Made by a program: the position numbers and the translations under genes
Shown here: piece by piece, positions 1,415-52,525 of the stretch
Layout: the number at the start of each line of letters is the position of its first letter
How positions within the stretch are numbered: the first letter of the stretch is position 1
From: Rhizoclosmatium globosum
Taxonomy: Eukaryota > Chytridiomycota > Chytridiomycetes > Chytridiales > Chytriomycetaceae
Reading direction: 5' to 3'
Assembly: GCA_002104985.1 (NCBI GenBank)
Contig: MCGO01000025.1
Coordinates: forward strand, 62,001 to 126,000
DNA: 64,000 nucleotides
The notes under the pieces: model-generated
Databases searched by the model: none
What the model saw: the letters and a program-made list of their open reading frames with translations, nothing else
What the model was told of the DNA's origin: nothing

Positions 1415-3368
1415 ATGCGTATTTCATGTGAAGATGAGGTTGAGGTTGAGATCCCGACCAACTGCCGTGGCCGCCACACACCGGGCGACAAAGACAAACG
1501 CGCAACTCTTCAGTTTCAACGCGCAGTTCGCCGCGCAGCCACGACGGTTGCGCACGAAGGTTTGGCCGTGGACCTGCGCCGCTTCTCAGAACTGCAAATT
1601 GATGCGCCGCGCTTTGCCGCTGCCCCGCCGGCTTTTGCTGCGCCGACTCGTGTGATGTCAGAAGGTGCGAAGGCGGAAGGCGCGAGGGAAAAGGAGAGAG
1701 AGAAAGAGGTGTGTTATACTTGACCAACAACCAGTGTTCTCTAAAGCCAATGTCGTCCAGAAAGAAGAACTGGCAAAACGGGCCCAGCTTCTCAACGATA
1801 ATCTGCTCAGTGTATGTCCCTGGCTCGCTCTCAATCATGTTTCAATACTTACTCCCGAAACCATCTCAGTTCCTTGACAAGAAACTGAATCAGCTAAAAC
1901 TCGAGGCCGAAACTAAACAGAAACAGACTGAAGCCCAACGCGCTAAACTTCAATTGGAAAAGGAAGCGAAAGAAAAGGAGGAGAGGGACAGGAAAGAAAA
2001 GGAGGCTAAAGAAAAGGAGGACAAACTAAAGAAGGCAGATGAGGAGAAACAAAGGCAACAGCAGGCCCAACAAGCTGCTGCTTCTGCCGCCGCAGCTCCT
2101 TCTGTACCAGCTACTCTACCTGTCCCTGCAACCATCACTCAGATCCCACCAACTCCTGCTCCAATACAAACGGCAGCACAACCTCAACCTCCTCCTGCTC
2201 CCAAACGAGAGTCAACTGTTCCAGTGAGTTGAATTCAACCGAAAATAATGGCTCAAAATTTAAAACAGAAAGGCGTAATCACGTCTGAAGAAGCCTGGGA
2301 CTCAGCCGCAAGGTTCTTTGGCGTTATTCAGGTATTAAACATCCATCAACTTCACGCGCGACTCACCCATCGTAGAATATCAAAGCCAACGTGAAACCAG
2401 CAGTCGTAAACAACCCTGCATTTTCTGCGTCGCGAATGCAGCGTATGAAGATTAATCAAGCCGTTGGACAAATCACACGATCAAAGCAAAAGATGATGGA
2501 CGTGGTATGTGTCAATCCGTACTTCATATGGCGACTCATATATTTTGCGGTATTAGGCAAGAGTAATCCACGGATTCCTCTCAACAGCTCAACAAAAGGA
2601 CGCATCCTACTACCAATACCTCCTTGACGTGACCGCCAAATCGTTTGTCCTCCAAGCTGACACAGAAGTATCCGTCCACGCCATCAAAGCCCCCGCTCTC
2701 GCTCAAGTAGCATCCATGCTCATTGAAAAACACCCAGACCTCCTCGCAGTCCTCCTCGGCAGACTCATGAAACGATGTCCATATACCGTGCCCATGTACT
2801 TCAAGAGACTTGAGGGCGAGAGTGAAGATGAATTCCTGAAGCGATGTCGGTATAAGCAAATGGAGGAAGGAGTTTGGGAAAGTGAGGAGCGGTATAATGA
2901 GCGAATGTGTGGTATGATAAGGTTTTACGCGGGGTTGACGCAAATTAAGAGTTGAGTTTCTGTTTCTGTTTCCATCTAACCTATTGTATGCTCATCATTG
3001 TTTTGTTTGCAGCCAACTCGGGAATGTATGATATTGACTTTGGATGGCAATGGATGGCGCGAGTATTAAATATTAATCCTCGAAAGATTACACCACAACT
3101 TGTGTGCAGCTTCTTGGAGGTAATTCAGTTTTTGATAGAGGTTGCCTTCTAAACGTTATCATCAAAGATTGCTGGAAACTCAATTATGAAGACATACAAA
3201 CGCCAAGCAGAGAAATTATTTGTCTACTTGTACAAGGTGTTTCTCCCTAAAATGATGACCCTGTCAGTGCCGAGTGCCATGAAACTTCAATTATTTTTGG
3301 AGGAGCCAGGAAACTTCATTCAAACAGGAAAGATGCCAGTACTCAAAGGATCCGAATTTGAGAATTGA
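1415..3368 (+). CDS. GLE1: Nucleoporin/mRNA export factor GLE1
   Basis: GLE1 sits on the cytoplasmic side of the nuclear pore and, with inositol hexakisphosphate, activates the DEAD-box helicase Dbp5 to release exported mRNA. The gene is split by about seven short introns. I read exons 1415-1708, 1761-1811 and 1870-2223, then further exons to a stop at 3368. The middle is a Lys/Glu-rich coiled coil (about 1900-2060), followed by a Pro-rich linker. The C-terminal HEAT-like GLE1 domain is clear: LLGRLMKRCPYTVPMYFKRL, then EDEFLKRCRY, the YNERMCGMIRFYAGL segment and FGWQWMARVLN. The first start is uncertain because residues before the coiled coil are poorly conserved in this family. It converges with the receptor on the minus strand, with 41 bp between stops. 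Confidence 0.88.
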
Positions 3369-34703: not shown

Positions 34704-34854
34704 CTTTCTTTTATCATCAATAAACGAGGATTAATAATACGATCCTTATCCGGTTTTTGAGATGAAAAGACCCAAAGAAAAATTTCTTCAGGAATTGTCA
34801 GTCCCGTCTCAGTCTTGCTGGGAAGAAGGGACGATCGTTTGCTCAAAAAGAAAC

Positions 34855-37800
34855 ATGATCAAATCAAGGGACATCCGTCGCGTCATAGGCGCGATCATAT
34901 TCTCTCTGTTCCTTCAATCCGCAAGTGCCCAAACAACCTGTTCTTGGACCACCCCGCCACCCTCTTCTGTGAATGAAAAAACACAACAAATCAATGGTCT
35001 TTCGATCTCTTGTCCAGGTGGAGCTACCTCCACCGCGATCTTGACCAGCAGTGTGGATTCCACGCTGTCCCTCTCTATCCAACTTGTCAATGGTGCAGGA
35101 ACTTTTCCAGCCTTTACCCTCACAAAAGGAGCTACTCAAGCAGGAGGAACTCAGACGCTCGCTGTATCCATCAACGGCGCGTCAGTTTTGACGGGTAAAA
35201 CATACGTGATCCCTCAAACTGTGGACATAGGATTTTTGGCCAACTTTGACGTGCCCTCCGGTTGGATGGATTATTCTTTGCCGCCTATAGTTTTTACAAG
35301 CGTTTTGAACGAAGAACGATCTTTGTTGCCGAATACAGTGGTCAACCTTAATGCAAAACCGTCCAATTGCTCAGTCACTGTTTCCGCAGCAAGTGCTTTT
35401 TCATTTTTATCATCTCCTACTATTGTGGCAATTATGGGCCCAGATTGTAGTGGTTGTGCAATGGTTGATGCACCGGTAAGGTCTTTGATCGTTTATTGAG
35501 AAAATCGTTGACACTTTCATACGGTTAGATGGCTGCTGCTTTTGACGTACCTGTTATCAGCGGCACAAACGGTAATCCAGCACTATCAGACAAGTCTGTC
35601 TACAAGATGTACATGCGAACTCTGGCAAACAATGACGCCGAGGATTCTTTCCTCTTGTCAATTATACAATACTACGGATGGAAATATGTCAACTTGGTTA
35701 CTTTTGACTATCTTCCATATGGAGACCATATGTATGCAGCTCTTAGTGAACTTAATGTGACTGTTTCTGTCAACTTGGTTCTCCAATCTGGAAAAACAAC
35801 ATACACCACGGAGTTCCAACAATTAACAAAATCCAAAGTGTCTATTATTTTGACGAACGTGTACAACAACGTTAATCTGGATTCTGATGCAATGTTTCGC
35901 ACAGCCGTAGCACTTAACATGTTTGATTATCCGTTTGTGTGGCTGTGAGTTTACTTTCTATAGTAATTGTATGTAAATTATTAATTGAATGGCTCAGATT
36001 CGGAAATCCTTCCGGTGATGACTTTACATCGACAACAATTGTCCCCGATTCGAAAAAGACGGGCCACTTCTACTTCAGACGATCTCCAACAATTACAAAT
36101 GCTGCTTGGAGACAGAAAGTGTGTGATCGTTTGAATAATGACACGTGGATGACTACGAATGGATGGGGTGGCCCATACTTACAACGCACCAAGGGGCTCA
36201 CAGTCCCAACCATGACCGACTATGGATTATGGAACATGAACGCAGTCCTCACCATTTTCTATGCGTTACAATCGCTTATTTACACCCAAAAAATTGATTT
36301 TGATGGGCAGTTGCTCTACACCACAATGAGAGCCTTGAACTTCACAGGTGTCCAAGGACCAATGGCATTTGACTCAAATGGAGACGCATATAATGTTCCA
36401 GCTGAAGGACTCGCGTGGATCCCTGGACAAAAATTCCAGCCTGTGGGAACTATTTTGCCTGTTATTGGTTCCCAGTTCTTGAAGTTTACACCGAATACTG
36501 CCTTCAGCTGGGCCAGTGGAAACACAACTCAACCAAACGGTGTGATTTGTGATCACAATTGTGGACAAGGAAGCTGTTCACAACCAGGAACGTGTATTTG
36601 TAAAACTGGGTGGGTCCAAGATAAGACACTCTTCTTGGCGGGTGGTTCAGACTGTACCATTGCACTTTGTTCTGCGTGTGTAAACGGTCAATGTGTTGCA
36701 CCAAATGTTTGTCAATGTAATCCACATGGATTGGAAGCGACTGTAGTATCCTCTCACTTCCACTTCAACAAACAAGCTTCAATGACGAAACCCAAGCGGG
36801 CTCGAAAGCACTTGCGGTGATCAATCTCATTGTCTTGTGCTCACTGTCCTTTCCGCAATCTTCCTTGCCATCAACAGAAACAACAAGCTCTACAGAAGTC
36901 TTGATATTTCATTCACGCTATTCAACTCTTTGGTGTCATTATGGCCACATTGGTCTTATTTTCTCAACAGCGGGACCGACCGACGCCAACTGTACTCTCC
37001 GGTTGTTCCTCTTCATTGGAGGAATGATGCTCCAAATGACTGCCTTGCTTCTCAAGACCTACCGTTTCTACACAATCTTTGACAGCACCAACCCCGCGCG
37101 AAAGGAAACCTCCAATTCTGGAACTCTCTGTTGTAATTATCGGTTTTGTTTTGTTCTCCATAATCTTTTGTATTATTTGGGCAGTTGTGGACACACCTTC
37201 CTACACTATCCTCAAAAACGTTGACGGAATCAACTTTTATGGCGTCTGTAAAAGTCTCAGTAACGGAGGCGGTTATGCTGCCGTCGTTATCCTTGGTCTC
37301 TTGTTTGCCTTCATCCTTGGTGTCATGATTCTCCTCTCTGCACTCTCTCAAAACATTCCAAAAGAGTACGGAGACAACAAGCTTATTATGCGGTACGCAA
37401 TCTGCACCGCCGCCGCGTGCTTGGCAATGGTTGTTGTTCAATACCAAAATTTCAACGAAGTGTACAAGACAATCGTTGTAAACGCGTTCGGAATCTTGAG
37501 TTTACAAGCTGGACACCTGATTTTGGTCGTTCCTCGATACTTGAAGGCCGTCAAGAAGCAGTACCACGGATCAACACAAAACACTTCCACCCAGAACGAC
37601 AGTACAAACGGTGGAGAGTCTTCTGGATACAGTCCAGTAGCTAAGATGGCCGATATGTTCATCTTCCAAGCTTGTCATATGAAGCCTGGTTTGTTGTCGC
37701 GTTGGGTCAAGAAAATGGGGATGTACGATCGCAGAAACAATATTCTTATGGTTCAAGCGGCAGCGTCCGAAACACAGCCGCACACTCCAATGGAAGCCTT

Positions 37801-38059
37801 CTTACTTAACTGTGTACACTCTAAGATAAACGACGTTGAATTGGCTGCCGGAGCTGTCCAGGGTACATTTACCCTGGAATGTGGAAAGTGAGTCTGAAGT
37901 CACTTTGTATTCCTTTTAACCTCAACATCATTTAGTGTTGTTCATCAGTTCCAATTTTCTGGTTCAGAAAAAGACGAAAAGGCCATTCAAGACTTCGGTG
38001 GACTTCTCAAGTCTCTCAAAAACACTACATTTGCCACGTCTTCAATGAAGGCAGCTTAA
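34855..38059 (+). CDS. Class C GPCR-like receptor with ANF-type ectodomain and EGF-like modules
   Basis: I start at the ATG at 34855 because a signal peptide follows (VIGAIIFSLFLQSASAQ). The ectodomain is a type I periplasmic-binding (ANF receptor) fold: VAIMGPDCSG, DVPVISGTNGNPALSD, YMRTLANNDAEDSF, QYYGWKYVNLV. Two EGF/tenascin-like modules follow (CDHNCGQGSCSQPGTCICK, CVNGQCVAPNVCQCNP). Seven helices follow: LAVINLIVLCSL, FGVIMATLVLF, CTLRLFLFIGGMMLQMTALL, SVVIIGFVLFSIIFCIIWAV, AAVVILGLLFAFILGVMILL, YAICTAAACLAMVVV and VNAFGILSLQAGHLILVV. The TM3 Cys and an ECL2 Cys (GVCKSL) fit class C. About five single-base frame steps fall between 36720 and 37090. The last intron has acceptor TTTAG before NVVHQFQFSG. 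Confidence 0.68.
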
Positions 38060-41011: not shown

Positions 41012-44000
41012 ATGGACACCAAAAGAAGCAATGAAAGAGCTTCCGGCACCGATTCTTCGGAGGCCATCTCATCTTCCAAATTGAGAAACCTCTTGAAAAT
41101 AGGAACCCATGGAACCGCTATGCCTTTGTACCTTAGAGCTCAAATATTCACTTCAATTTGCTTGCCTATCGCTGCTATAGCTCTTCTCTGCGGTCTACTC
41201 ACAAATATTGATGAATCTTCCAACAGAAACTTTCAGATACAAGTACCGCATCTGTACGTCAATGGTACAGGCTCAAGTATGATGGCTAATACTTACTGGC
41301 GATCATTAGCCATGTTTTCCACATATCTTACAAATCAGAAAGCGTCATATATTGTTGACTCCAAGTACATTTCCACGTCAAGTGGAGTGGGGAAATCAGA
41401 TTTTTCGAACGGATACAGCTTGTACGCAGCAACTGATTCTGACGTAAGCAAGGCCGACCTACAGTATTACCTTCCCGACAACAACCCTCAAAAAACAAAT
41501 ATCTCATTATACACAAGTCCCAAGACGTATCCACACCTAGGATCCATTATGATCCCCACAATAGCCGGAGCTATGGGGATCGTTTACAACATTCAAGGGT
41601 TTCCCGAAGGCGCGTCTTTGATTCTGAACGGATCTGTATTGGGCGACATCTTTTGTGGGGCAATCTCTTGGTGGAATGATACAGCAATCCAACAATTAAA
41701 TCCTTCGATCGTAATGCCGAGTAAAATGATCAAGGGTACGGGGAGAGGGGATTCCAGTGGATCCACACAAATATTCACGACGTACCTCGCCGCCCATTCA
41801 ACTCAGTTCGCAAATCGAATAGGAATTTCGAGTCAACCGAAATGGCCGTCTTCGTTTGTGCTTGGAAACAGCGCTGTAGAGCTTATTACATTTCTTCATC
41901 GGTTGTCAATTCCATCGCATATATACCAATGGAAGCAATCATGCAAGCAAAGGTATGCTCGATATTTCAATTTGTTAAATAACCAAAACCATTTCTAGAG
42001 TATCGGACAAGACCCTCAAGTCGCCATCCTCCTTAACAGCAACGGAACAAAAACAACGCCAACCACAGAAAGCGTTACCCAAGCCATGCAAAAAGTCGCT
42101 GCCGACACAGAATTTAGTAGACACAACTTCCTCACAATCTTGGACGTCAATGACCCAATAGCATACCCAATCGCCCTCATGTCATTCGTTCTTCTCCGTG
42201 AAAACTACTTTTGGTTCACGCCAGGCTCGGAAACAGACTGCCAAAGAGTGAAAGCACTCGTATATTTTTGGTACTACTTCTTGACGACCCAAGCGTTGTA
42301 ACAACCAATTTGAACAACGGATGGGTTTCAATCTCAGGAGAGTTTTGCAAGATAATTTACGAGCTTTGAGTTTAATTACGTGTAATCGTGAGAGTGTGAT
42401 GGACGCGTTGACGATTGAGTTGAATAGAAGGCATTTTACACTGGCAGTTGAGTTTTACTTTCATCTAAACCCCCCATTTTCCCGTTCTTTCTAAGACTTA
42501 AAAAAAACAACAACAAACAGGGGAAGCAGACTTTGACTGGGACTTTTCGCTCGAGTTTTGGGAAATGACCATAAATTCGAAACCAGCAAGTTCGGGTCAA
42601 CGCTCTACATTCTCTATTACGTCATATTATTCATTTCAAACGCCGTGCCATTTACTACAAACATGATCAAATATTTCAAAAAAAGCGGGTCACAAATTGA
42701 ACGCGATGATGCAGAAGCTCGAAGGACAGTGAGTATTCAAACTGGGTCCCTTACGAGTGGTGTCAAAGATGACGACGAAGATGAAGACGAAGAGGCAAAA
42801 AAGGCTGGTTACGTGAAATTCACAATGCAAAATCGGTTAGGGATTGGACACAATTTATCACCTGTTTTCAAATACTTATCTCTGCCTCCGAAAATCAAGC
42901 AACGTACATGAAAATCAGTATTTGGATGTGATTTCGTATTTCGGGATTATACCTAACTGGTTTCCTTTCGGTGTTATTCTTGGCTGTTTGGTCTTTGTTT
43001 GGATTGTTTGTATGTTGTATACACATACTTTTACGGTATCTTGGAGCAGTATTATCCTCGGAAGCTCATGAATTTGACACATTTTCACTCTTTTCTGGCC
43101 GATTTTCTTCCCAATTACGCCGTCATTTTCTACAATCCAAGCATCGACCTCTTATCCAAAGTCTTGGACTGTCGATTCAATTCTAATGAAATGGTGTATG
43201 AGGCTGCGTACGGATCTCTTTGCTGGACAAAAGGCCATTGGGTTATGTCAGTGATAAGTTTGGTTTTGGTTTCAATGTTCACAAACTTTGTCGTTCGATA
43301 TTCCAAGATTTTGAAGGTTTAATTTAGATTTTCTCATGTAAGGAAGCGTACTGATTACATTTCTTAGCTATTGAGAAAGCAATTTGATTTCAAAGATGAA
43401 GAATGGTATATCTATGTTGACTCCGTTGCGAAAACGTTCATCCTCATACTCTACTTTAATACCTCAAACAACTATTTCCTGCCATTAACGACGGCACTGT
43501 TGATTGGCCTGTCAATCTGCTCCTTGATTGGAAAACCGAACGAAATTTTCTGGTTCAACTATTTCCGTGGTGGAATGTACAGCTACTGCGCTATTGTTTG
43601 TTTGGTGCTATTTGTTCTTGAAATGAAGGTATCTAAAACGGATTACATTCAACGCGAATCCTTGTGCTACCAGATATCAATGGGCGTCTTGCTCGTCACA
43701 ATTTCTGTTTCTGTATTCACATATTTATTCTTGGCTGGTGCATACAAAGCTGGGTTGACAGATCGCGAGGTTAAACAGAAAGAGGAGGAACTTAAAAAAT
43801 TCTTTGCTGCTTTCGGGTAAGAAACGGTTGAACGCTTTATTTGATACTGAGACTATCGTAGAAGCGACGGCTGTCCATCTGACTTATTTGACGAAGCTGG
43901 TAATATGGAATCACGCAAGCAATCAGTCTTCCATGATAGAAAGCTATCAATTATAGCCTCTGCCGTAGACAACGCAGATCTAGGCATGGTTGGAGGTCCA

Positions 44001-44828
44001 GGAAGTATGATGGCTCCGTCAGAAGCAAGCAATGGAAGTTTTTCAAAAGAGCAATGGAAGCAGTTTGACGCAATGATTGTTTCTGCGAGAAGCATCGATT
44101 TAGTCACCAAAGATGAAGCGAAAGCGATTCGTTTGGCAATCAAATACGAAGATCCGATGATCGTGATGGTATTTGACCGGTCCGGAAGGAATTTGAACAA
44201 GTTCGTGGATGGCCTGAAAGTCAAAGTATTTCAAGCTTTGGCAAAGAGTCCAGCGGATTGCGGAACACGATTATTTACGACTCAAATGGCTTCTGTTGGA
44301 CCTGTCATTGCTAGTCAAGTACACTATCCTGTTATTCAAAATACCAATGAATCTTTCAGTCATGGTTCTTTACCGCGTGGTTCAATACAATACCAACAGC
44401 ATATGCTTGGGGAGCCGATTGGATACGCGCCTCGCGCTTCGTTCCAAGCACATTCTCTCCAAAGTGATACCTCTGGTCAACAATCGCTTCTGCGTTCTTC
44501 ATACCAACCACCACATCCTCGACCGAGAGATGGGTTACCGCATTCGCCAAATCAACGACTTTCCTATATTCCACCCAATGCCTCATCTCTCAGAGAATCA
44601 GCTGTGCAATATAGTATTCATCGAGGTTCAGCTGCTGGTAGCTCCAACTTACAGCCGCCGCATGCTACAGATGCAGCTCCAATGAAGATGATGGCACTGT
44701 CAATGATGCGGCCTGTTTCCATTGCAAAAGAGTTGCAACCAATAGGCGAATCAACACCACCAACTTCAAAAGAAGAAGATAACGACAAAGATCACGATGA
44801 TAAGAAGAACAATAATTCCATAAATTAA
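41012..44828 (+). CDS. PstS-like solute-binding domain fused to multi-pass membrane protein, copy 1
   Basis: The N-terminus has a signal-anchor helix (ICLPIAAIALLCGLLTN). An extracellular domain follows that resembles bacterial phosphate-binding PstS: HLYVNGTGSSMMANTYWRSL, IPTIAGAMGIVYNIQGFPE, LNGSVLGDIFCGAISWWNDT, IQQLNPSIVMPSKMIKGTGR and DSSGSTQIFTTYL. About nine membrane helices follow, including TLYILYYVILFISNAVPF, GVILGCLVFVWIVCMLY, FLADFLPNYAVIFYNPSIDL, MSVISLVLVSMFTNFVV and FNYFRGGMYSYCAIVCLVL. The cytoplasmic tail has EQWKQFDAMIVSARSIDLVT and AIRLAIKYEDPMIVMVFDRS. At least nine single-base frame steps occur (for example near 41887, 42290 and 42565), all explicable as shortened homopolymers when compared with copy 2. 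Ligand unknown. Confidence 0.6.
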
Positions 44829-44851
44829 AGCACTTTGTTTTTTTGTTTTTG

Positions 44852-46576
44852 ATGGAGTTCCTAACACCAGCCATCCTCGCACTCCTTCCTTCCAACGCAT
44901 CTGAGATATCGGACAACCTACGGACCAACAATCTCTGCGACCGATGCATCTTGCGAGTTCTCGGAGTCCGCAAAGCAACTCTCTTCGCATCATCGAATCT
45001 GGGCACGAGCCACCGTTGTCCAACCTGTTTCGGGCTCCTTCAACCAACAACGTCCACGTCCGCCGCCCTTAAAATAACCTCAAAATTAAGAGACGAGCAC
45101 TGGTCCGGCCTGACCTCCTTCTTCATCGCCCCGCACCTCCCAATCCAACTCGCTCTTCGATCCCGCGCAATCGACCTCCTCCTCTCAGCAAACAACCTCT
45201 CAATCGACCGCGGTGTCTCAAAGCGCGTCCCGAAAAAGTTTGACAGGAATCAGAGCAACAAGGCAAACAGCGATCGCAGGGCTTCAAACAAGGCGAACCA
45301 CCTCCCTCAGCTCGATCCAGCTGACAATCAGCTGTTTTCTGTGTCGCAGAAGCAGATTGACGTGAAGGATGCACTTGCAATGATGGTTGCACATGAGGTG
45401 TCGCGGATGACGGGGTTGGTCTTTGATCCCAAAGCTGCTTTTCATGTTGAACTCGCGTTTGAGCATGGAGAGACGGAGAAAGAGTTTGAGTGGGTCCGAG
45501 AACAGCGAAAACGAACGCGGCAAGACGTTCCGTGGCGGAAACCGGTCGAGAGTGGTGGTGATATTGTATTGGAGACATGGAATCAAATGGTGAATGCTGC
45601 AATGATGTTAGACTATCAGGATTTCGTGCGGGAAGAATACATTCCATTCAAGCCTGTTAACTCGGAATGTGCATGTACTGAGATCAAGTTGGTACACCTT
45701 TCGCTGTTTGTTGCAGGTATGTGAAGTGTGAAATTCCGTTCTACTCCTATAAACCTGTTCTATTCAAGGTCGATACAATAAGTACAGCAGGGAAGTCAGT
45801 AACGCTCGGATGGAATATAATGGAGAAAGACTTGTTGCAGAGTCAGTCGAAGAGTTGATTGGAGAACACCTAGATTCGCTCTTTCATGCTGATGGACATA
45901 ATTTTGCGTCATCAGGTCGGGAAGATGTCGATGTGTTGATGCTCGGGAGTGGAAGGCCGTTTTACATGGAGCTTGTGAATCCAAAGAAACAAGACATATC
46001 TCAAAACCAAGTGCGGGTTGCTCAGGAGCAAATCAACAAAACGCGGGAAGGCAAAATTCGCGTCACTCATTTGCAATTAGTTGAAAAGTGAGATTCTCTT
46101 TGTGGCTCCCTTTTTATACTGCAATTTCTGACGTGCTCTATAGAGATGAGACAAAACATCTCAAGAACTCAGCCTCGACGAAACGAAAGTCATATTCAAC
46201 ATTAGTTCAACTCTCGAAGCCAGTCACTTTACATCAATTGAATGAGCTGTCGAATATGAAGGACCTGGCATTGAAACAGCAGACACCCATTCGAGTGATG
46301 CGGTCGAGGTCAGATTTAGAGCGCGATAAGGTTGTGCACGAGATGAATGTGTATCCAGAGAATGAAGGAGTTCTGAGAGAAACTGGGGAATACGTCTATG
46401 ATTTGATACGAATTGATTTGACCACGAGCGCGGGAACCTATGTGAAAGAGTTTTGCCATAGTGACGGAGGGAGGACGGTTCCAAGCATCAAGGAGTTATT
46501 GGGAGTTGAGAGTGCAACCGTGGTCGCCTTAGACGTACTACAGGTTTTCTTAGACTGGCCAAAAGAGACTGAATAA
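44852..46576 (+). CDS. PUS10: tRNA pseudouridine synthase Pus10
   Basis: Three exons, 44852-45716, 45769-46087 and 46144-46576, with GTATGT/GTGAGA donors and in-phase joins. The N-terminal THUMP-containing part carries the zinc pairs LCDRCILRVLG and HRCPTCFGLL. The catalytic half is characteristic: RYNKYSREVSNA, SSGREDVDVLMLGSGRPF (the Asp after RED is the expected nucleophile), QINKTREGKIRVTHL and SAGTYVKEFCHSDGGRTVPS. Pus10 makes pseudouridine at positions 54/55 in the T arm of tRNA; it is present in archaea and many eukaryotes but not budding yeast. An insertion of basic residues follows residue 120. It starts just 23 bp after the stop of the preceding receptor gene. Confidence 0.92.
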
Positions 46577-46807
46577 ATTGATAAGAAAAGGGGAGTTCAA
46601 GAATAGCAAAACCATCACCCACTTTGACACCACAAACAAAGACGACATTGACCCAGACTTGGATACCCTCAACTATGTCATCCAAAAGTTGTTTAACGTC
46701 TTCAAAACAACGAGAAACGCGTTCCAAAAACTGTTCAATTCATTGTATTCAAGATTCAGAATGGTAAAATGCTACAAAAAAAAATATACTATAGAATCGA
46801 GTGTTCA

Positions 46808-48026
46808 TTAAACACATCCTACATATCCACCCTTCACAAGGCACTGTCCAGGACATTTGCTTTGTTCAATCCACGCCAACGAGTTTCCAGCAACATAAGA
46901 ACAGATCAAAATTGTTTTCGCATCGCTTGCACACTTCCAGTCTCCATAAGTGCAACTGTTACTGATGGGACCGTTGTTCTGAGAAGGCGCGTTATTCCAA
47001 AATTGGCCAGAAGGACCATTGTTGACTGGACCGTTGTTGGTAGGACTGTTGTTAGTTGAACCAGCAGAAGGACCAGAAGAACCAGTTGCAGGAACACCAG
47101 AGGCTTGGTTTGGGACCCATAGATCCTTGGTCTTTGTTCATGCAACCGACATATCCGTTGGGACCGTTATCAACGCAATACTGAGACGGGAGACACTTTG
47201 ATTGCCAGACCCAAGAGAGTTGGGTTGTGGATGTGTAGGCACATTGGTAGAGGGAGAGGTTATCTGCCTTTGAACATTGGAATTTTCCAAAGGTTTGGCA
47301 GGGACCGGTGGGAGGGGTGAGGGGGTCGATTCCTTTAGAAGGGTTGGAGTTGGAGTTGGAGGAAGTGGAAGGATTGTTTTGTGGATTAGGTGATGGATTG
47401 TTTGGTTGCTGGGTAGAGGAAGAGGAGGAAGAAGAAGGTGCATTGATACATCCTACGAATTGTCCGTTGTTTGAGCAGATCGTGTTTGGTCCGCAAGTGG
47501 AATGTGGACGCCAAGCCAAGTGTTACCGCAACATACCCACACTGGAACAATGACTGGTTGTCGGTACCACACGCAAAGTCACCGTTGAGATTGCAAGGTG
47601 AGTTTTGGGAGACAACGAGGGAGGCAGAAAGCTGTGCACAACCAGACTGGAGGGCAGACGCGACGGCAGCGGTGTCCTTGTCGCTGGGACTGATGCACGA
47701 CGAGACGACTTTGAGAAGCGACTGTTGGTTGGGCGGGGAGCAAATACACGTGGCCTGATCGAGGGTTGGAACGAAGGATGCCGAAGAAGACGCGGCTGCC
47801 TGGATGTCAATCTTGCATGATGAGTACACGGCAAGAAGGGCCTTGGCATCATCCACACAGTCTGTGCACCTTGAGAAGATGATGATGATGTGGATGTTGT
47901 GGTGTTGGATGGTGTTGATCCAACCGCAGCCCGGCCGCCGGTGAAAATGGATGCAAAGTTTGACCACGAAAGGGCCATGGCAGAGTTGGCAGTTGAGACT
48001 AGAATGAGAGTTGTTGCGAGCTTCAT
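46808..48026 (-). CDS. Secreted Cys-rich protein with three CBM19-like modules
   Basis: The start MKLATTLILVSTANSAMALS is a signal peptide. A Cys-rich N-terminal region (CTDCVDDAKALLAVYSSC, DQATCICSPP) may join through an intron with a GTCAAA donor. Three related modules follow: SPCNLNGDFACGTDNQSLFQ to ICSNNGQFVGCINA; GPCQTFGKFQCSKADNLSLY to NGYVGCMN; and SCTYGDWKCASDAKTILICS to GGYVGCV at the stop. The C..G.F.C......C.......W....C....C pattern resembles chitin-binding CBM19. Ser/Asn/Pro linkers separate them. Both module junctions need a +1 frame step, near 47519 and 47136. Either the sequence has two extra bases or this is a pseudogene. Likely a wall or extracellular protein. Confidence 0.45.
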
Positions 48027-48375
48027 TGAATGGTTTTGTTTTTGGAAGGATGTTGTTGCAGTTGTTGTTCTTAAGTCTTCTTGATTTTGTGTTCGACCGT
48101 GGATCTCCAACAGGGTTTAACCACATGTTGAACCAAGTTATTTTCTTTGTTCTACTGATTTTCTGTCTTTTCTCAGCGGATTTACTGCTTTAATTGCCGG
48201 ATTCATTTAAGAACGATCTTTCAACTTTATTCATGCAACCTACGAAACTTGATGTATTGCATGTATTTCTGGATTGGCCGAAGCCTGTAGCCTAAATTCT
48301 AATGATTTCTTTTCCCATAAAATCTTTATTGTTGGTATAGAGTTGTTCTTATTGTTCAGGTAAAAGTAACTCACA
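48027..48375. other. Divergent intergenic region
   Basis: About 350 AT-rich bases between the Cys-rich secreted gene (minus) and receptor copy 2 (plus). At 48230-48292 there is a stretch (ending ttggccgaagcctgtagcc) that resembles the 3' end of the PUS10 coding sequence (46540-46575, ttagactggccaaaagagactg), hinting at a small duplicated fragment. No gene seen. Confidence 0.35.
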
Positions 48376-51300
48376 ATGGTCCGCACAATGGATGCATGTA
48401 CACAATACAAAGATCATTATCTCCAAAATGGAGCAGAATCTGTCAACGTTGCCCTTAAGTGTCAAGTCTCGGATCAGTTGTTTTGTGCTTGCACCATTTG
48501 CATCATTTTTATACTTTGCGGACTCCTCACCGCCTATGTCAATGAATCTATTACTGCCTTGTCAACTCATACAGAACCACCACACATTCTTGTTAACGGA
48601 TCTGGTTCATACTCTTCACAAATACTATGAAACGTGCCAGCGCCTTATTTGCAGACTACCTCATCCATCAACAATCTAACTACGAAGTTGACCTTGATTT
48701 CAAGAGTATCGGAAGCGCCAAGGCCAATTGGAGTTTTTAAACGATTACAATTTGTTTGCAGCAACGCACGTTGACGTTGATGCAGAGGAATCTCAATACT
48801 TCTTACCTCAAAACGTGGAAACATTGGAGAACGTGACGCAGTATGTGGATCCAAGAGCACCACAACATTTGGGTTTATTAATGATGCCGGTTCTTGTTGG
48901 TGCTGTCGCAGTCATTTATCACTTTCCAGAATCGTATGATGACTCATCGCCATTGATTCTTACTGGTGCATTATTGGGTGACATTTTCAGTGGTGCCGTT
49001 GTGTGGTGGAACGACACGTCAATCCAAAACCTGAATCCATTGACCCCCCTTCCACGAAAAAAGATTAGTGTTATTGCTCGAGGAGATTCTGGAGGCACTA
49101 ACTTGGTATTTACGGAATTCATGAGTTTGTATTCTAAACGTTTCAGGGAAAGTGGTATTGGAGTGTTGGGGAGCCCAAATTGGCCTCGTTTCGTCAGAAC
49201 AGGCGATTCGGCAACAGAAGTTATTTACATGTCCTCGGCAATAGATTATTCCATTACGTATCTTGAAAATGAAATGGTGTTGCAAGCTCAACTGCTGGGT
49301 TTACATTGTCAAGTAGCTTCAATTGTAAATTCAAACAATATGGGAAAAGCCCAAGTATTGGATCACTTTTGTCAATCATGGAATCTATTCCTGTGTCTGA
49401 ATCTCTCAAGCGACATAATTACTTGAGTATAATTGATAGCAAGAACCCAAACGCATATCCTATCGCGTTTAGCATGTTTGCATTAGCTCATGAGCACTAT
49501 TACTACTTTTCACCGCCACCAGATAATAATTACTGCGAACGAGTGAAAAGAATGGTTTATTTTTGGTACTTCTACCTCACAAGCAACGAAGTCAGTTCTT
49601 CGAACGCCAATATTGGCGTAACTTCAATAACTGGCTCGCTGTTAGAGTATAACTTGAAAGTCTTGAGTCTGGTCACGTGTAATAAGATCAACATTATGAA
49701 GCAGTTGGAAAAGGAACTGGACGAAAGAAGTTTTACGAAAATTGTTGAGTATCAATCGCACAAAACATGGTTTAACTGACGTATTTTGTGACAGATGAGC
49801 ATGATATTGAGTGGGACGTTTCATTGACGGTTTGGCAGAATGACAACAAGTTTCAGACAACTCCTGTAGGAACATCATTGTACTTTTTGTTCTACGGAAT
49901 CCTGATATTGGCTTGCCTGATCCCATTTTTTCTTAACATGCACAAATTGTTGAAGAAGGGTGGTGACTCGCATCATGATGTTGGAGCACACAGGTCAAGT
50001 CTTGCCATAAAGGGACAATATCATATTAAAAATGAATATTCTAATGAGGAGGATGATCTGGAAGAATTGGAAGAATTGGAGGCAAAGATGCAAGGGAAAG
50101 TCAGGTTCACAACACAAAACATATTGGGCATTCTTACCCAGTTCATAACGTGCTTTCAAATCCTCTATTTATGCATGTCAAGCTCTGTAGTAATTCAGCA
50201 TAATATTTGGGTTGATATTGTTTCGTACATCGGCATTATTCCTGGATATTACGAATTCGCAATTATTCTCAAATTTGCTGTTTTCATATGGATTGGCGGT
50301 ATATTCTATACAACATATTTTCATCAAGTTCTAGCTGAGCATTATCCACACAAACTTATCAACATGACTTCGTTTCACGCGTTCCTGGCTGATTTCTTGC
50401 CAAACTTTGCTGTACTTTTGTACAATCCGAGTGTGGAATTACTGGCAAAGGTATTGGATTGTCGGTTGAATCCCCATACATGGAAGTATTCCAACAGTTA
50501 TAACGAGACTTGTTGGACAAAACATCACTGGATAGAGTCTGTGATAAGTTTGGCTTTGACTTGTACATTTACGGCATCTGTCGTTCGTTACAGCAAAGTC
50601 CTAAAGGTTTGTATGCAAGCCTGTTGCAAAAAAACAACTAAAATTAACGCAGTTACTGAGAAAACAATTCGACTTCAAAGATCATGAGTGGTGTATTGTA
50701 AGTACTGACAGAATGCTGCTTTGAGTAACATTTGTTTTATGTAACTGTTAGTACTTGGAATCAGTTGCCAAGACGTTCATTGTTATCCTGTACTTCAATT
50801 TTAATGACTTGCCATTCCTTTGCACGACATTTGTCATACTTGTAGGATTGTCTCTGTGCAATTTGATTGGAAAGCCAAATTACGTCATGTGGTTTAATTA
50901 CTTCCGTGGTGGGGTGTATACTTATGCTGCCTTGGTATGCGGAACCCTAATTGCATTCGAGGTTCAAGTTTCTTCAGTCGATTTTAGCAACCGCCATACA
51001 ATCAGTGGCAAATTGAGCCTCGGTTGCTTGTTGCAACACTCAGTTTATGTGTTTTCACCTTTGCCTTCATTTCAACCCGATACAGAGCAGGGCTATCATC
51101 CAAACAAATGGAGCTAAAAAAAGAGGAACTAAAAAGTTCTTTGAGGCGTTTTCAGAATCGTATCGGGATGAGGAATCGCAACGCCTTGCATCAGCAGCCG
51201 GAGTTGTCGAGGACGGCATAACTCCAATAATTGGACAATTCGAATTAAATAAGGCTGGACTTATTGGTAAGAGTCATAGTGGTAGCGTTGGATGCCTAGA

Positions 51301-51754
51301 CCCAGGGAGTGGCGGTTTCTCGGCAGTGAGTGATTCATATCTTGGTGGATTCAATCATATTGACAACTTTAAACTGCAGGAACAATGGAAGCAGATTGAT
51401 AATATGATTTCGGTGGCGAGAAATGTTGGTTTACTCTCAAAGGAAGAGGCGAAACCAATCAAACTAGCAATCAGATCCGAAGATCCAATCATTCCAATCA
51501 TATTCTCGCGATCAAACAAGAACTTGAATGTATTTGTTGAATATTTGAAAGCTAGAGTGTATACTATCTTGTCTTCGAATCCTCGCAATTCGAGTAGAAA
51601 TGGGAATATAGTGAATCAATCACTTCAGAAACAGCCAAGTTTAAATTCAGTGCAAGTTGGTCGAGGTTCTCAGATAGTAGCAACACGTATCACTTCAACA
51701 AGGGAGATACATCGTTCTCCGTTAGCACAGAACTCATCAAAACGGAACGAATAA
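48376..51754 (+). CDS. PstS-like solute-binding domain fused to multi-pass membrane protein, copy 2
   Basis: Same architecture as the gene at 41012-44828. Signal-anchor FCACTICIIFILCGLLTAY; binding domain PHILVNGSGSYSS, LMMPVLVGAVAVIYHFPES, GALLGDIFSGAVVWWNDTSI, RGDSGGTNLVFTEFMSLYSK. Membrane helices include SLYFLFYGILILACLIPFFL, GILTQFITCFQILYLCM, YYEFAIILKFAVFIWIGGIF, FLADFLPNFAVLLYNPSVEL, ESVISLALTCTFTASVV, VAKTFIVILYFNF and VYTYAALVCGTLIAFEV. The Cys-containing loop CRLNPHTWKYSNSYNETCWT has a glycosylation site. The tail has EQWKQIDNMISVARNVGLLS and PIKLAIRSEDPIIPIIFSRS. Introns near 50600-50660 and 50700-50752. Frame steps near 48626, 48733, 49363, 51030 and 51130, mostly at homopolymers. 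Confidence 0.62.
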
Positions 51755-51813: not shown

Positions 51814-52525
51814 TCACTCTCCATGCTTCAAGACACGAACAAAATCACGGTAATTAAAATCCTTGTCTTCTAATGGGGCTCCTTTGAACATAATATCGAC
51901 CTGAAACCCCAAGAAATCGTTAATGCACAGATTAAAACAATCGTATTTACCTCTTCATGAGTGAATCGATCACCCATAGTTGTCATACACTCTCGCAAGA
52001 GTTCCGCGTCAATAAATCCAGTTTTGTTTTCATCGAAGCATTCAAACGCCTGAAGAATCTCATGCTCTGGATCTGTCCCGCTCATTTTTTCGCCCATACT
52101 AACCATGGACATGATGAGATTTTCCATGACTTCAGAAGAGCGAATACTTACAGCGTTAAGAACATTGTAAAGTTGATTGAACCAGGAGCTCTTTAATCAT
52201 ACTGTCGATATACTCATCGGAAGGTGTCTGACCTAAGAGAGGAAGCTGGGTATTAGAATTTTGACGTGTTGTATGTTTGACGTTCAGATAATCGCGACTT
52301 ACCCAAGCTAGAGAGCATATCCTTAATATCTTCGCGATCCAAGAACCCGTCAGAGTCGTGGTCAAACATACTGAAGGCTTCCTTGAACTCGGCGATTTGA
52401 TGTTGCTCAAACATTGCAAACACGTTCGAGTTCTGACGCACAGCACGCTTCTTCTTCTCTTTTCTGGCTGACTATGCATAATATTTAGTTGGATGCTATG
52501 ATAGTGAAGGGATGTTATTCACCAT
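51814..52525 (-). CDS. Myosin II regulatory light chain
   Basis: EF-hand protein that binds the neck of non-muscle myosin II. First exon is ATG only (52523-52525, donor GTGAAT); exon 2 starts at 52471 with [22 protein letters not shown]1 is [20 protein letters not shown] with a usable calcium/magnesium site; then [14 protein letters not shown], the EF3 region [27 protein letters not shown], and the last exon [14 protein letters not shown]. The phosphorylatable Ser before NVFAMF is kept (Ser19 of animal RLC), but the preceding Thr is Asn. Near 52188 the frame breaks between MIKE and [11 protein letters not shown]; one missing base would restore a block conserved in all RLCs, which suggests a sequence error. 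Confidence 0.88.

Follow-up and report, generated by a model that had tools for sequence, protein, structure and literature searches.

Candidate cell-surface receptors of chytrid fungi that join a PstS-fold ectodomain to about nine membrane helices

Bacterial PstS (TIGR00975; Escherichia coli structure 1ixh) serves uptake by the Pst ATP-binding cassette (ABC) importer. In ionotropic glutamate receptors, a type II Venus-flytrap domain controls a membrane module, whose pore lies between the two halves of that domain. FLC/TRP-like proteins (PF06011) begin with an extracellular domain and continue into about nine helices; the FLC proteins are fungal and polytopic, and their extracellular domain is of a lipid-binding type. 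For fungi, passages in two reports describe a Spizellomyces G-protein-coupled receptor (GPCR), SPPG_06488, that bears a PBP_like_2 domain (Krishnan 2012, PMC3251606) and class C GPCRs of gut fungi with sugar-type solute-binding domains (Seppala 2016, PMC5168858). Because class C GPCRs with type II solute-binding domains have been published, a fungal receptor with a PstS-like domain is not entirely without precedent. Here we analyse two paralogous genes, gene 1 and gene 2, of Rhizoclosmatium globosum, a chytrid that a passage of a recent paper describes as saprotrophic and aquatic (PMC12115818). They lie in a window of 64,000 nucleotides (bases 62001-126000 of contig 168; genome 56.9 Mb, 420 contigs). 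Each gene begins by encoding one anchor helix, which is followed in turn by an ectodomain of the PstS fold (type II, Venus-flytrap), a membrane module with about nine helices and a tail that carries a conserved element. We put at roughly one in two the probability that both products are cell-surface receptors of a family known so far from the Chytriomycetaceae. Their features are as follows.

41012..44828, + strand: gene 1, whole fusion (anchor, PstS domain, membrane module, tail), from the ATG at 41012 to the end of the last frame at 44828
41141..41203, + strand: gene 1, N-terminal membrane anchor QIFTSICLPIAAIALLCGLLT, from direct reading and the hydropathy of relatives
41246..42470, + strand: gene 1, PstS-type ectodomain with an intron at 41953-41998 within it, from TIGR00975 and phmmer against the Protein Data Bank (PDB); 3′ limit approximate
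41741..41776, + strand: gene 1, pocket loop GRGDSSGSTQIF, with R135, D137, S139, G140 and S for T141 (E. coli PstS numbering)
42597..43816, + strand: gene 1, membrane module of about nine helices with an intron at 43317-43367 within it
43862..44828, + strand: gene 1, tail, with a conserved element at about 44043-44249
48428..51754, + strand: gene 2, whole fusion, from the ATG at 48428
48580..49743, + strand: gene 2, PstS-type ectodomain, from TIGR00975, phmmer against the PDB and PF12849 above its cut-off
49076..49114, + strand: gene 2, pocket loop ARGDSGGTNLVFT, with G in place of S139
49744..49799, + strand: gene 2, predicted intron between ectodomain and module
49800..51128, + strand: gene 2, membrane module of about nine helices with introns at 50607-50652 and 50698-50751; 3′ limit approximate
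51129..51754, + strand: gene 2, tail, with a conserved element at about 51380-51595

The PstS profile TIGR00975 matched gene 1 (E=2.7e-29), gene 2 (E=5.7e-24) and the five module-type relatives scanned (E 1.5e-30 to 6.9e-50), at 85-170 bits, so that none reached the curated equivalog cut-off of 205 bits. PF12849 matched gene 2 above its 27-bit cut-off (33.8 bits, E=4e-8) and gene 1 below it (21.8 bits, E=1.8e-4), and the best PDB sequence matches by phmmer were PstS in both cases (1.8e-20 and 2.9e-16). A structure model of the ectodomain of P0016, a Siphonaria relative, has the type II binding-protein fold. The PstS match is contiguous and lies upstream of the membrane module. These results bear out the original prediction, made from the DNA letters, that zoosporic fungi join a PstS-like domain to a polytopic membrane region. 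The signatures that it had named are present in both genes: PHLYVNGTGS at 41246-41275 and PHILVNGSGS at 48580-48609, together with the two pocket loops, as are the FLADFLPN...YNPS and CWTK.HW blocks that it had noted in the membrane region (43089-43241 in gene 1, 50379-50531 in gene 2).

The same build recurs across the genome. Thirty-two exon matches, grouped by hand, resolved into at least 16 module copies, the two in the window and at least 14 more; a weak match (C29; E=4e-4, 26% identity, three stops) was excluded from this count. A PstS domain lies upstream of the module in 16 of 16 copies, the sequence examined for L033-L035 starting inside that domain. At 94-99% DNA identity the 16 copies collapse into five sets of two or three near-copies plus three singles; the sets, spread over different contigs (C46/C8/C380; C388/C384/C133, two sets; C7/C385; C168/C56), are either haplotypes or recent duplications. 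The copy L017 carries a single open frame (1459-3033, 525 codons) that spans the greater part of the PstS domain and reaches 150 residues into the module, with no intron predicted between them, and from its sequence we take it as the evidence for a fusion in one frame. It stands in place of L016, whose 861-codon open frame we dropped as single-exon proof: that frame contains a 48-base in-frame GT...AG stretch at the junction, probably an intron, and a short intron is predicted at the same junction in gene 2. Because of this probable intron, about 16 residues of the query protein P0001 may be intronic; they lie inside the whole-P0001 query and just before the module pieces used afterwards.

Relatives were sought among 5.8 billion proteins with the P0001 module and with whole P0001, in a search that depends on shared 5-letter words, so distant relatives may escape it. 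The module query returned 14 proteins at E<=0.01, every one from a chytrid, and a module profile returned 11 proteins at E<=1, again chytrid only. Whole P0001 returned five proteins: P0006 is among the 14, P0007 is an additional Siphonaria protein that stops just past the first module helix, and P0008-P0010 are not chytrid fusion proteins (P0010 alone is named by its source, as a phosphate transport substrate-binding protein). The relatives come from Obelidium mucronatum, Podochytrium sp. JEL0797, Siphonaria sp. JEL0065, Entophlyctis luteolus, Physocladia obscura, Rhizoclosmatium hyalinum, Rhizoclosmatium sp. JEL0117 and R. globosum. The fusion, for which a search of chytrid proteomes had been proposed at the outset, is present in several genera. 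The expected range of 'zoosporic fungi' holds in that the fusion occurs there and narrows in that all six taxa looked up (R. hyalinum and JEL0117 were outside the look-up) are Chytriomycetaceae. A precomputed PF12849 match is shown for 8 of the 14 relatives; among the six others, TIGR00975 finds PstS in P0011, P0013 and P0018, the ectodomain tree described below places P0014 in the module-type group, and in P0022 and P0023 the N-terminal half is missing. P0018 and P0021 are publicly named 'Phosphate-binding protein PstS 1', a name that conceals the membrane module.

An AlphaFold2 (AF2) model of the module shows nine long helices (predicted local confidence, pLDDT, 73.5; predicted TM-score, pTM, 0.75), and hydropathy gives 7 to 9 peaks after the ectodomain in six proteins. 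The two methods select different sets of nine, and hydropathy misses the fourth AF2 helix, which is too polar for its threshold; the count is therefore not firm, although both results suit the about nine helices first proposed. Many polar and charged positions of the module (H, N, P, K, D, R) are invariant. Four cysteines (P0016 positions 373, 421, 671 and 688) never vary among 13 aligned proteins; one pair lies in the ectodomain and the other between helices 4 and 5. Across 13 related proteins, the ectodomain is enriched in sequons (76 versus 56.6; 3 of 1000 shuffles reach this count) and the tail is depleted of them (15 versus 28.5; 1000 of 1000 shuffles reach this count). With the N-terminus of the anchor inside, nine crossings would also place the tail inside. 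From topology rules and these sequon counts, we infer that the ectodomain and the two-cysteine loop after the fourth helix probably lie outside and the tail inside. The tail element, about 66 residues long, is common to 14 aligned tails, shortened in P0016, and has the consensus W.KL...A...GLL..E...V..AI..EDP.I..LF.R....L..F...LK.KV.Q.L. Every Pfam family that matched the module did so in at most one of ten members at E<=1, and the module profile matched no PDB sequence at E<=10.

The E. coli PstS numbers given to the pocket residues agree with PMC5439949 after an offset; a literature search aimed at these residues gave no hits. By sequence comparison gene 1 keeps or conservatively changes these residues, and gene 2 carries D56H and S139G. 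Intact relatives of the gene 1 type include P0016 and P0020. Phosphate, foreseen as one candidate ligand, would thus suit gene 1 and is doubtful for gene 2.

We suggest that each product is a single chain whose ectodomain, on the extracellular face, would close on phosphate or a related oxyanion; the ligand would most likely be phosphate for gene 1 and an altered one for gene 2. Closure would pull on the two membrane connections and so change the state of the module, and module and tail would relay the signal into the cell, the protein acting as a ligand-gated channel or recruiting a cytosolic partner. That zoospores or rhizoids use it to sense nutrients is conjecture. More tentatively, the family may form a separate class of receptors, in which a Venus flytrap of the bacterial phosphate-binding type controls a nine-helix module without known relatives; such a class would have arisen in one chytrid family beside the PstS-like GPCRs of the same genome and diversified into sensors whose pockets suit phosphate in some cases and other ligands in the rest. 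We found no published description of this build in open-licence PubMed Central papers, as the original prediction had expected. If the proposal is right, fungi have mounted phosphate-binding domains of the bacterial type on two membrane machines that are unrelated to each other, 7tm_3 and one as yet unassigned, these genes would supply a first candidate for a phosphate receptor at the chytrid surface, and the fold and output of the module are directly solvable. A 2025 paper on R. globosum calls, in one passage, the chemotaxis mechanisms of aquatic chytrids poorly understood, and it describes a transcriptome of strain JEL800 (PMC12115818). Another chytrid, Spizellomyces punctatus, is reported to be transformable (PMC7213984).

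Several results weigh against the receptor reading. R135 is present in 14 of 22 module-type rows and absent from the other eight, and the full set S38-D56-R135-G140-S/T141 occurs in seven of the 22 (gene 1 and six more); because the pocket varies across the family, phosphate is unlikely as the ligand of all members. If one of the nine helices of the middling-confidence model did not cross the membrane, the tail would lie outside. Pfam gave no match in the tails scanned and showed no effector domain. Foldseek with the module model found no credible fold match, the best matches being transporters (E 0.34 and worse, TM about 0.2), and the module could itself be a transporter. On this alternative, the PstS domain would capture phosphate or another anion and pass it to the fused nine-helix carrier, a eukaryotic, one-polypeptide form of binding-protein-dependent uptake. 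The uptake role of bacterial PstS and the many invariant polar and charged module residues favour it. However, the module has no transporter match in Pfam (ten members) or in the PDB at E<=10, the Foldseek matches are as poor as stated, the conserved tail element suggests a cytosolic partner, and the absence of R135 from 8 of 22 rows agrees better with diverse sensing than with uptake. We consider a transporter unlikely.

The likeness to TRP/FLC membrane regions that had first been noted would make these proteins channels of that kind with an exchanged ectodomain, and the fungal, polytopic build of FLC proteins speaks for it. However, PF06011 matched none of ten members at E<=1, and the module profile matched no chain at E<=10 in the PDB, which includes TRP and PKD2 channels. 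No such fold was among the listed fold matches, which is no exclusion at the middling confidence of the model, and PF06011 had no match in the genome, in a search that lacked a working positive control. With profile and sequence searches unsupportive, we rejected the likeness, and such a channel is improbable.

A strongly diverged class C GPCR, with a Venus-flytrap ectodomain on G-protein-coupling helices, is suggested by the same genome and by the published fungal receptors cited above: its 26 PF12849 places divide, by tblastn assignment, into 10 of the module type and 16 on GPCR-type helices. Yet the module has about nine helices (AF2; 7-9 by hydropathy) rather than seven, hhalign against seven GPCR-type helix sequences of this genome gave a probability of 0.2%, and PF00003 (7tm_3) matched none of ten members at E<=1 with a library that detects 7tm_3 in the GPCR type. 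The ectodomains of the two kinds also separate. In a tree of 53 sequences, the module type (99/99), the GPCR type (100/100) and the prokaryotic sequences (94/90) form three groups; the tree is midpoint-rooted and in effect unrooted, so it shows neither the branching order of the groups nor whether the two fungal kinds were acquired separately, and three of its 17 prokaryotic rows, chosen for spread from 80, sit on long branches. We therefore rejected GPCR helices as the identity of the module, and this reading is very improbable. As for the origin of the ectodomain, an initial scan of genomes from bacteria and archaea gave no relatives, and another, whose profile included E. coli PstS, gave 563, the best 80 of which, from several phyla, are 25-38% identical in the best segment; a close bacterial donor was therefore not found among these 80.

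The 16 PstS-like GPCR-type ectodomains, several in tandem pairs, lie at L009, L010, L011, L012, L013, L019, L020, L021, L023, L024 and L025. The two genes of L009, the only GPCR-type ones scanned with Pfam, both have 7tm_3 above the cut-off, and one has an EGF match below it. Genome-wide, 7tm_3 gave at least 139 matches (150 of 163 candidates scored), counted per exon and with near-copies included, indicating a large class C GPCR set.

Reading frames were set by splice-aware alignment to P0016. Gene 1 needs seven frameshifts and gene 2 six, each a single lost base, with no in-frame stop. Gene 2 has a near-copy on contig 56 (98.5% identical in an alignment of 6,273 columns, with 42 gap columns altogether), and all six shifts of gene 2 lie within 5 bases of a window gap relative to that copy. 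The two shifts in the copy itself fall no more than 17 bases from gaps on the contig 56 side. From this comparison, we read the gene 2 shifts as probable consensus errors. Those of gene 1, which has no second near-identical copy in the assembly, may be the same and are judged by analogy only. Ten of the 14 other copies are free of shifts (L014, L015, L016, L018, L027, L028 and L033-L036); seven of these 14 loci were aligned with fewer templates than the other seven. L017 and L022 have two shifts each, and L026 and L042 may be decayed because they carry nine of mixed sign and five plus one stop, respectively. The public protein BCR33DRAFT_257783 (P0022) corresponds to the C-terminal half of gene 1 (four exact blocks, 43068-44682) and lacks the N-terminal half because its annotation begins inside the gene. 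That both genes are broken and the fusion an artefact of assembly or annotation, as the 13 shifts, the half-length P0022 and the two possibly decayed copies might suggest, is highly improbable, given that 13 of 13 shifts are single lost bases without a stop, that those of gene 2 coincide with gaps absent from its near-copy, that 10 of 14 other copies need no shift and that other genera have intact relatives.

Three further genes were seen in the window. A tRNA pseudouridine synthase gene, Pus10 (44816-46576, +; Pus10_N_euk E 2.2e-10, Pus10_C E 8.4e-34), lies between the two receptor genes, and an EF-hand protein gene (51870-52471, -; EF-hand_6 E 6e-9) lies immediately 3′ of gene 2. Another class C GPCR (34738-37891, +) is read from overlapping frames, with ANF_receptor pieces (E 9.5e-5, 1.3e-13 and 2.1e-4), a weak EGF match and 7tm_3 (E 7.8e-10).

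Set beside the described systems, the chytrid proteins differ from bacterial PstS in the added anchor, module of about nine helices and tail and in scoring below the 205-bit cut-off; Pfam finds no ABC domain in the polypeptide, and the genome was not searched for Pst partners. Unlike FLC/TRP-like proteins, they have PstS as their ectodomain and a module with neither a PF06011 match nor such a fold among the listed matches. Unlike ionotropic glutamate receptors, they have an unbroken PstS match with the module after it rather than a pore inserted within it. With fungal class C GPCRs they share a type II ectodomain on a multi-helix membrane protein, in chytrids and in the same genome. They differ in carrying about nine unassigned helices instead of 7tm_3, in ectodomains that group separately and in the pocket, as the two GPCR-type rows checked lack R135 and D56, both of which gene 1 keeps.

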